A stretch of 5,136 bases of DNA, taken from NCBI GenBank assembly GCA_021805585.1, contig JAJZEY010000271.1, forward strand, positions 1 through 5,136. Reading direction: 5' to 3'. The position numbers were made by a program, and so were the translations under genes. Positions within the stretch are counted from its first letter, which is position 1; each line of letters begins with the position of its first letter. Positions 1-1,163 of this stretch are shown here, piece by piece. The stretch comes from Planctomycetota bacterium (lineage in GTDB: Bacteria > Planctomycetota > Phycisphaerae > WQYP01). Under the pieces are notes generated by a model that was not told where the DNA came from, made no database searches, and was given only the letters and a program-made list of their open reading frames with translations.

Positions 1-1050
1 ATCTTCACTCAATAATTTTGTCCGCACAGCCCTTCGCGAAGCGTTGAATAAGTAGGACGGCGAGGGGGGATGCGTCAGCCCCTGATCCTTGGCCAGCCAA
101 TCTTCGCCGCGTAAAAAACTCCATCGGCGGCCGCCGTTGGCGCTCCATGCAATTCCGTCGTCGGTTGCAACCCATGCGGTCCCATCGGGCGTTACAAGAA
201 GATCGTTCAATAAATTGCCGGGAAGGCCGTTGCCCCGGGGAGTTAACGGCGGGGCCTCGACAAACCCGCTTTTTACTATCTTCCACCTCCCATATCGGAT
301 GGGGCCATTTAATTTGTGATGGCGAAGCGCTTCGCGATCTTTTGGGATGGGGCGGCTTATGGCCAATCCATCGCAGCCTGTGGCCGCATAGACCCGCCCG
401 TGCGGCCCAAATGCGACTTTCCAAATGTCATCTGAAGGCAATCCCCCGGTCACGGTATAATAAATCCATTGGCCAACAATTTTGTCCTTGCCTGATTTGC
501 CGCCTATCTCATAGCGAGATATGCCGCTATTTGTACATATCCATATGCTTCCATCCAAGGAACTGACTTTTATTGAAAAGACGTGCTCGCCAATCGGTCC
601 GGCCCGTTCATCACGCCGTTTATCCGTCAACAGGCCGTAGCGCTGCCAATATTTTCCGTTAAATACCGCAACCCCATGGTTCAGTGTGCCAGCCCATATC
701 CGACCTCGTGAATCACAAGCCAATGCCTCCACCGTGCTGTCGTCCAGGCCTTTGCCGGTTGTGAACTGGGTCCACGGAGATTGCGATATCTGATTCGGAT
801 TGAATCGGTAAACGCCATGGCCTTCCGTGCCGACCCAAATATTTCCAGCTTTATCGTCACAGAGTGAAACAACGAAATGCGCGGGGCAAGCGGCTATAGT
901 TGAGCCGCCGAATTTCCCGTCGGCCATCAGCTTGGGCCCTGCGTTCGCGAAAGCGACGAGAATCATTACCAATCCGGATAATCGGGGAATCGCCACCTTC
1001 CGCCACGAATCGTGGATCGCGGGGCCTGATTTCCGGGCATGGGAATTCAC
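1..1050 (-). CDS. Secreted Reg_prop-type beta-propeller protein, C-terminus beyond the window
   Basis: The minus frame is open for 350 codons from a GTG at 1050 to the window edge, with no stop inside. Residues 17-37 form a signal peptide: basic residues (WRK, R23), a hydrophobic core (LVMILVAFA) and an AxA-like site FANA before G38, so the rest is probably exported. Five degenerate repeats of the form D-x-x-G-x-I-W-V-G-T-x-x-x-G-V follow, at about residues 65-84 (IWVGTEGHGV), 113-131 (IWAGTLNHGV), 164-181 (IWICTNSGIS), 215-232 (VYAATGCDGL) and 287-303 (AWVATDDGIA). This is the blade motif of two-component-regulator propellers (Reg_prop). Linkers such as TTGKGLDDSTV and TGGLPSDDI are typical of that family. 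Known family members are sensor domains of hybrid histidine kinases or stand-alone secreted propellers. Any transmembrane, kinase or other C-terminal domain would lie left of the window, so the role (ligand sensing or extracellular binding) is open. The start was chosen because GGAG lies 8 bases upstream. The coding frame is confident; the function is only at fold level. Confidence 0.85.
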   Translation of the reverse strand, partial: MNSHARKSGPAIHDSWRKVAIPRLSGLVMILVAFANAGPKLMADGKFGGSTIAACPAHFVVSLCDDKAGNIWVGTEGHGVYRFNPNQISQSPWTQFTTGKGLDDSTVEALACDSRGRIWAGTLNHGVAVFNGKYWQRYGLLTDKRRDERAGPIGEHVFSIKVSSLDGSIWICTNSGISRYEIGGKSGKDKIVGQWIYYTVTGGLPSDDIWKVAFGPHGRVYAATGCDGLAISRPIPKDREALRHHKLNGPIRYGRWKIVKSGFVEAPPLTPRGNGLPGNLLNDLLVTPDGTAWVATDDGIAWSANGGRRWSFLRGEDWLAKDQGLTHPPSPSYLFNASRRAVRTKLLSED

Positions 1051-1091
1051 AATTTGCGCTCCAGCGAACCGAATCCACGCACAGTTTCCAT
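1047..1091 (-). CDS. Possible short leader ORF overlapping the propeller start
   Basis: A 14-codon reading frame (METVRGFGSLERKL) runs from ATG at 1091 to TGA at 1047-1049. The stop overlaps the GTG start of the propeller gene in the form GTGA. A strong Shine-Dalgarno sequence, GGAGGA (1092-1097), touches the ATG directly, which is too close for normal initiation. An in-frame GTG at 1080-1082 is 10 bases from the GGAGG core and would give an 11-codon version. The overlap would suit translational coupling, but a frame this short can arise by chance and there is no conservation evidence. Low confidence. Confidence 0.2.
   Translation of the reverse strand: METVRGFGSLERKL
1059..1062 (-). promoter_or_regulatory. 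Ribosome binding site deciding the GTG start of the propeller gene
   Basis: On the minus strand GGAG stands 8 bases before GTG (1048-1050). The next in-frame ATG (964-966) lies inside the hydrophobic core of the signal peptide and would destroy it. The in-frame GTG at 994-996 would remove the W-R-K part of the basic n-region. The 1050 start is therefore preferred. Confidence 0.6.
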
Positions 1092-1132: not shown

Positions 1133-1163
1133 ATTATATCTTACCGCCCCCCCCCTATGTCAA
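1133..1163 (-). promoter_or_regulatory. Sigma-70 promoter of the propeller gene with a G-tract in its spacer
   Basis: Read on the minus strand, a perfect -35 box TTGACA (1158-1163) is followed by a perfect -10 box TATAAT (1133-1138). The spacer is 19 bases, 2 longer than the 17-base optimum, and contains nine consecutive G. Transcription would begin near 1126 and give a leader of about 75 bases before the GTG start. Both hexamers match consensus at 6 of 6 positions and the orientation and distance fit the gene, so the promoter call is good. The strength is uncertain because of the long spacer. Confidence 0.75.
1147..1155. repeat. C9/G9 homopolymer tract inside the promoter spacer
   Basis: Nine C on the plus strand (nine G on the minus strand) lie between the -35 and -10 boxes of the minus-strand promoter. 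Runs of this kind are prone to slipped-strand mispairing. A change in tract length would change the hexamer spacing directly: losing two bases would give 17. The tract may also be miscounted by sequencing, so the exact length should be treated with care. Confidence 0.8.

Follow-up and report, generated by a model that had tools for sequence, protein, structure and literature searches.

A candidate phase-variable promoter with a poly-G spacer ahead of a predicted exported propeller gene of a planctomycete

The promoter of a gene encoding a predicted exported propeller protein, located in a 5,136-nucleotide stretch of planctomycete DNA (the window), is probably controlled by slippage of a run of nine G and would accordingly be phase-variable, as judged from sequence comparison. 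This reading is suggested by the perfect boxes which flank the only G9 of the window, by the recurrence of the same architecture at promoter spacings throughout the class of its relatives (86 of 397 genomes; 150 matches against 10 for the reversed pattern), by homologous promoters of relatives whose tracts differ in length, by an export-like bias of the downstream open reading frames (ORFs) and by repeated use within the window's own gene family. Against it speak the 50 of 64 upstream regions of homologues without such a tract and the lack of conservation of the G9 itself, as well as the occurrence of G or C runs of at least eight bases, which are not rare in some genomes, and of G7-8 promoters without a clear export bias. 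The features of the window are the following.

1158..1163, minus strand: -35 box TTGACA, six of six consensus positions (sequence reading)
1139..1157, minus strand: spacer of 19 nt, TAGGGGGGGGGCGGTAAGA (sequence reading)
1147..1155, minus strand: homopolymeric tract of nine G, the proposed slippage site (sequence; homologous promoters of relatives vary in tract length)
1133..1138, minus strand: -10 box TATAAT, six of six consensus positions, at a spacer of 19 nt (sequence reading)
1138..1143, minus strand: alternative -10 box TAAGAT at a spacer of 14 nt, sharing one base with TATAAT (sequence and scripted reading)
1059..1062, minus strand: GGAG, 8 nt ahead of the GTG, likely the ribosome binding site (sequence reading)
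1..1050, minus strand: predicted exported Reg_prop (PF07494) propeller protein with a GTG start at 1050, truncated by the window edge (ORF and domain match)

The minus strand from 1163 to 1133 reads TTGACA-TAGGGGGGGGGCGGTAAGA-TATAAT, the plus-strand counterpart of the tract being a C9 at 1147-1155, and reading the sequence confirmed the perfect boxes, the 19-nt spacer and the nine G of the preliminary description. Its estimate that a run of nine G or C is expected about 0.1 times by chance agrees with the computed expectation of 0.12, and the window contains one such run only. Of 200 shuffles of the window 17 produced at least one copy; the G9 run by itself is not very rare, and its position is what counts. 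The combination TTGACA-N15..20-TATAAT, on the other hand, occurs once in the window and in none of 200 dinucleotide shuffles of it. The description has to be amended by the TAAGAT hexamer 14 nt from the same -35 box, because of which the 19-nt spacing is not the sole reading. A generic promoter scan misses the site since it accepts spacers of 16-18 nt only. In its anatomy, with a homopolymer placed between two identifiable promoter boxes, the arrangement corresponds to the porA/tp0126 type, and both spacings, 19 nt for TATAAT and 14 nt for TAAGAT, deviate from the 17-nt optimum by a few bases only, so that small changes would matter.

The N-terminus of the propeller protein was scored as export-like by a simple hydrophobicity rule, and the predicted hydrophobic segment together with the Reg_prop repeats upholds the proposal of an exported or surface-located target. 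Open frames of the homologues mostly comprise about 750-1150 aa. The ABC transporter of the window has its counterparts, among 15 genomes searched, in G006 (70% identity), G002 and G010 (69% each) and G004 (65%).

According to the proposed mechanism the G9 tract would gain or lose G during replication, the altered number of G would alter the distance between the boxes and hence how often transcription of the exported propeller gene is initiated, and the cells of a clonal population would come to differ, some having more of the propeller protein and others less. TATAAT would reach a distance of 17 nt by the loss of two G and TAAGAT by the gain of three. What we infer here is that the window tract slips, at what rate it does so, that transcription depends on its length and at which length the promoter would be on. 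The expectation that loss of one or two G raises expression could not be established: the commonest spacer of relatives with at least nine G is 19 and not 17 nt, and the alternative -10 box at a spacing of 14 lends this direction no support either. Two overlapping -10 hexamers 14 and 19 nt from one -35 box are found in L341 (TAGAATAAGAT) as well as in the window (TAAGATATAAT), and with such pairs G gain and G loss could each put one hexamer at 17 nt.

In the relatives' class (probably the Phycisphaerae) 86 of 397 genomes contain the pattern TTGACN1-14-G9-N0-10-TANNNT, with 150 matches in comparison to 10 for the reversed pattern, and 26 of the 397 contain the C9 version (37 matches, 11 reversed). 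A G7 version was present in 95 of 198 genomes of the class. The T9 version with a strict TTGAC is rare (9 of 198 genomes, 11 matches, 2 reversed), which is why the poly-T form with TTGC at the -35 position, described below, may be peculiar to the gene family of the window. Elsewhere, the G9 pattern was detected in 17 of 148 genomes of the class of the Schlesneria record G003 (22 matches, 4 reversed), in 6 of 114 of the class of the Chiayiivirga record G403 (7 matches, none reversed) and in 11 of 119 of the phylum of the Acidobacteria record G402 (20 matches, 3 reversed). The architecture is not confined to one class, and the relatives' class is the richest among the four groups tried.

After removal of eight overlapping readings the 150 G9 matches correspond to 142 distinct sites, and the 37 C9 matches to 36 after removal of one. 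Sequences were fetched by hand for 93 of the 142 G9 sites, one batch of which was picked mostly as look-alike pairs, for three C9 sites and for four sites from the class of G003. Tracts at sites of the G9 pattern are 9 to 17 bases long, with one of 24. Runs of at least eight G or C are not rare in some genomes, as 16 were counted in 400 kb of control sequence; the control stretches (L236-L255) also contain isolated G or C runs of 21, 40 and 43 bases.

At the 142 sites with at least nine G the spacers were distributed as follows: 14 nt, 10 sites; 15 nt, 5; 16 nt, 20; 17 nt, 18; 18 nt, 9; 19 nt, 39; 20 nt, 16; 21 nt, 9; and outside 14-21 nt, 16. Promoter distances of 16-20 nt are thus found at 102 of the 142 sites. 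The commonest spacer, 19 nt, is that of the window; a further peak lies at 16-17 nt, and the two are separated by a dip at 18. Spacers of the G7+ pattern peak at 17 nt among the 150 matches listed. When 17-18 nt spacers are compared with those of 19-21 nt, runs of seven to eight G are divided 56 to 10 among the matches listed and runs of at least nine G 27 to 64 (p 3e-12, related sites being counted separately). The spacers of the 36 C9 sites spread over 13-21 nt without a clear peak. In about half of the sites with at least nine G (74 of 142) the run directly adjoins the -10 box. The two peaks around the dip at 18 fit promoters which are often off their optimum, or alternatively an optimum displaced by poly-G. 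The sites provide a natural data set on spacer length, in which those with at least nine G show this two-peaked distribution, unlike those with G7-8.

The ORFs behind G9 or C9 promoters were export-like in 56 of 90 cases compared to 6 of 27 behind promoters of the ordinary kind, TTGACA-N16..18-TATAAT, from that class (p 3.4e-4), the call being made by the hydrophobicity rule on the longest downstream ORF and paralogues being counted each. With restriction to ORFs within 150 nt the figures are 52 of 79 and 3 of 21, and in a comparison with 20 random 20-kb stretches 54 of 87 versus 60 of 312. G7-8 promoters showed no clear export bias (7 of 22). A Pfam search of 75 of the 83 downstream proteins yielded N_methyl (pilin-like) six times, Reg_prop five times, MauE three times and DoxX twice, and clustering of the 75 gave one family of nine members and two of seven, the first of these two consisting of propellers and the second being pilin-like. 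The members of the pilin-like family (L117, L118, L123, L171, L181, L182, L183), which lie directly behind G-run promoters, are possibly phase-variable pseudopilins. The nine-member, mostly export-like family comes from several genomes (L120, L127, L167, L168, L175, L180, L192, L197, L201); neither of the two members scanned, L120 and L197, had a Pfam or NCBIfam match.

Ten sets of homologous promoters from relatives were compared, and in eight of them the tract length was unequal, a proportion that is not a rate, as some sets were chosen because a length difference was visible by eye; inclusion of the G389 pair (11/11), which is outside this comparison, would result in 8 of 11. The sets are:

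L012, L136, L015, L137: 9/9/11/10, at four places in one genome
L117, L118: 10/12, with flanks well conserved on one side only
L145, L146: 11/12
L139-L141: 13/13/15
L142-L144: 9/9/10
L149-L151: poly-C, 12/13/13
L152, L153: 14/12
L154, L155: G11/G14, in two genomes
L206/L207 and L224/L225: tracts equal in length within each set

L154 and L155 are identical for 75 nt on either side and differ in the run alone (95.4% identity over a wider 305 nt). The length differences come from eight of ten related sets and from the poly-T homologues, the window tract having no close copy for comparison. The proposal of a length-variable tract in the promoter of an exported-protein gene gained support in part, and all of it from relatives: from their promoter spacing, from length differences between conserved flanks, from the export bias and from reuse within the family. 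L012, L015, L136 and L137 also contain a conserved inverted repeat, GGCCGGGG...CCGGCC, just 3' of the -10 box, one side of which is GGCGGGGG in L136. The pair L004/L031 (G12/G10, 98.4% over 306 nt) resembled a variable promoter but was taken out of the counts, since its run (L004:3260-3271 and L031:2466-2475) lies at the 3' terminus of a coding sequence located upstream and the two sequences differ there by three bases. This difference abolishes the stop in L031, so that the protein may vary in length at its C-terminus.

The window protein was compared with 36 of the 83 downstream ORFs, and homologues behind G-run promoters were identified in G004, G093, G070, G006 and G005 (E 1e-54 to 4e-16), where G004, G005 and G006 had been chosen via propeller loci and only G070 and G093 are independent of that choice. 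Family homologues were found in 26 of 298 genomes with at least 74 matches (at most seven scored candidates per genome). Of the 74 matches listed 70 were retrieved, among which 64 extended far enough upstream to be read. Two sets of control windows were used, namely 205 baseline windows from genomes selected for G-run sites and 161 windows from 16 stretches in 14 of the 26 propeller genomes. A G or C run of at least eight within 700 nt upstream was present in 15 of the 64 family members, 6 of the 205 baseline windows and 1 of the 161 from the same genomes. A run of at least eight of any base inside a spacer between a TTG[AC]-type -35 box and TANNNT was found in 14 of 64 (nine poly-T, five poly-G) under a rule, with TTGC accepted as -35, that was devised after the poly-T examples were known; the controls gave 0 of 205 (p 5.7e-10) and 0 of 161 (p 7e-9). 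Within the 14, L325, L341, L352 and L356 are the same promoters as L224, L222, L142 and L223. Strict TTGAC gave 5 of 64 versus 0 of 161 (p 0.002), and A/T runs per se are not enriched upstream of the family (11 of 64 versus 17 of 161, p 0.18). By the rule applied, 50 of the 64 upstream regions lack such a tract, which means that the family is not fixed for the trait.

The four closest homologues among the matches listed have a poly-T of T9 to T13 at the place of the tract, followed by GCG and the -10 box: L289 (62% identity, TTGCG-T13), L315 (59%, TTGCG-T9), L290 (59%, TTGCG-T9) and L291 (55%, TTGC-T11). The G9 itself is therefore not conserved. In L289, L315 and L290 the T13, T9 and T9 are embedded in closely similar flanks. 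The next homologues, L292 and L294, show no run of eight upstream, and L293 has a C11 for which boxes were not assigned. A C13 upstream of L001, the best match in genome contigs (49%), was left uncounted because its boxes are unconvincing. A part of the propeller family thus retains the architecture with a different base in the tract.

There are other ways in which such a tract could be explained. It could be a structural or regulator-bound element, either A-like DNA or a protein binding to G-runs, so that the tract tunes promoter strength near an optimum of 19 nt and length variation is neutral drift. The preference of runs of at least nine G for 19 nt and of G7-8 runs for 17 nt among the matches listed is what a shifted poly-G optimum would produce, and the direct contact of 74 of 142 runs with the -10 box points in the same direction; one shifted optimum does not, however, predict the additional peak at 16-17 with the dip at 18, and a G-specific element is at odds with the poly-C sites and with the poly-T which close homologues have in this position. 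In addition, an export bias is typical of contingency loci. We consider this explanation, in either variant, unlikely.

Less probable still is chance, by which a G run without any function would have arisen between the boxes of an ordinary promoter. A G9 does arise in 17 of 200 window shuffles, and 6 of 205 baseline upstream windows contain G or C runs of at least eight, but a fifteen-fold excess over the reversed pattern, the promoter spacing of the sites and the family counts (14 of 64 versus 0 of 205 and 0 of 161) speak against chance. Long G-runs are difficult to sequence, and at 8 of 80 G9 sites (e.g. L192, L195, L212, L225, L227) the contig ends no more than 250 nt away, where 0.91 such sites are expected, so that the length of nine could be an assembly or sequencing error and the state of the site misread; the tracts of 9 to 17 bases (one of 24) which 86 of 397 genomes carry in this arrangement render this highly improbable, and one or two wrong bases would leave the architecture in place. 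The contig ends near tracts could reflect mixed lengths, but repeats and dropout of poly-G reads explain them equally well.

Slippage which alters the distance between -35 and -10 has been described, in passages of PMC7864442, for tp0126 of Treponema pallidum and porA of Neisseria meningitidis. In tp0126, encoding an OmpW homologue, a poly-G lies between the boxes and transcription is best at a spacing of 17 nt, and in porA transcription is lost once the 17-nt spacing is reduced (PMC7864442). The window resembles porA in the poly-G spacer and the (predicted) surface-protein target and differs from it in the planctomycete host, in two boxes with six of six positions, in the spacing of 19 as assembled and in the poly-T which its related genes carry at the place of the tract. 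With tp0126 it shares the poly-G between the boxes; tp0126, however, encodes an outer-membrane protein of a pathogen, whereas here the pattern recurs across numerous genomes and precedes genes of several kinds. Neisserial opc/opcA is similar in that its expression depends on the length of a promoter tract, a strain with 11 C being different from one with 12 C according to passages of PMC3447861, but its poly-C spans the -35 region and not the spacer (passages of PMC7864442). Homopolymeric tracts inside coding genes have been presented as a general regulatory mechanism (passages of PMC2831843), which has in common with the present case the use of homopolymer slippage across prokaryotes; it acts by within-gene frameshifts, promoter spacers are not a subject of those passages, and planctomycetes go unmentioned in the main text of PMC2831843. 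The passages of PMC4060949, a general survey, contain no planctomycete report. No report of promoter-tract phase variation in planctomycetes was found in the full-text literature, which mostly excludes subscription papers. The mechanism is already known; the host group, the breadth and the exchange of T for G appear to be new.

Promoter-tract phase variation is known mainly from pathogens, and its usual explanation there is immune escape. If it holds widely in uncultured planctomycetes, on exported propellers and pilin-like proteins, other pressures such as phage, grazers or attachment would come into question, and reads at the 142 distinct sites with at least nine G should hold mixed tract lengths. 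We see an even balance for and against the wider proposal that the class, presumably the Phycisphaerae, has a large, hitherto undescribed contingency system of homopolymer switches in the spacers of many promoters, mainly on exported proteins and with exchange of T and G tracts within a family; the same balance applies to propellers, pilin-like proteins and one unnamed secreted family as its exported targets. As a minor observation, the 17-mer TTGACATAG9 of the window is found identically at L091:1501-1517 in the planctomycete genome G005, where it lies ahead of a different, short ORF.
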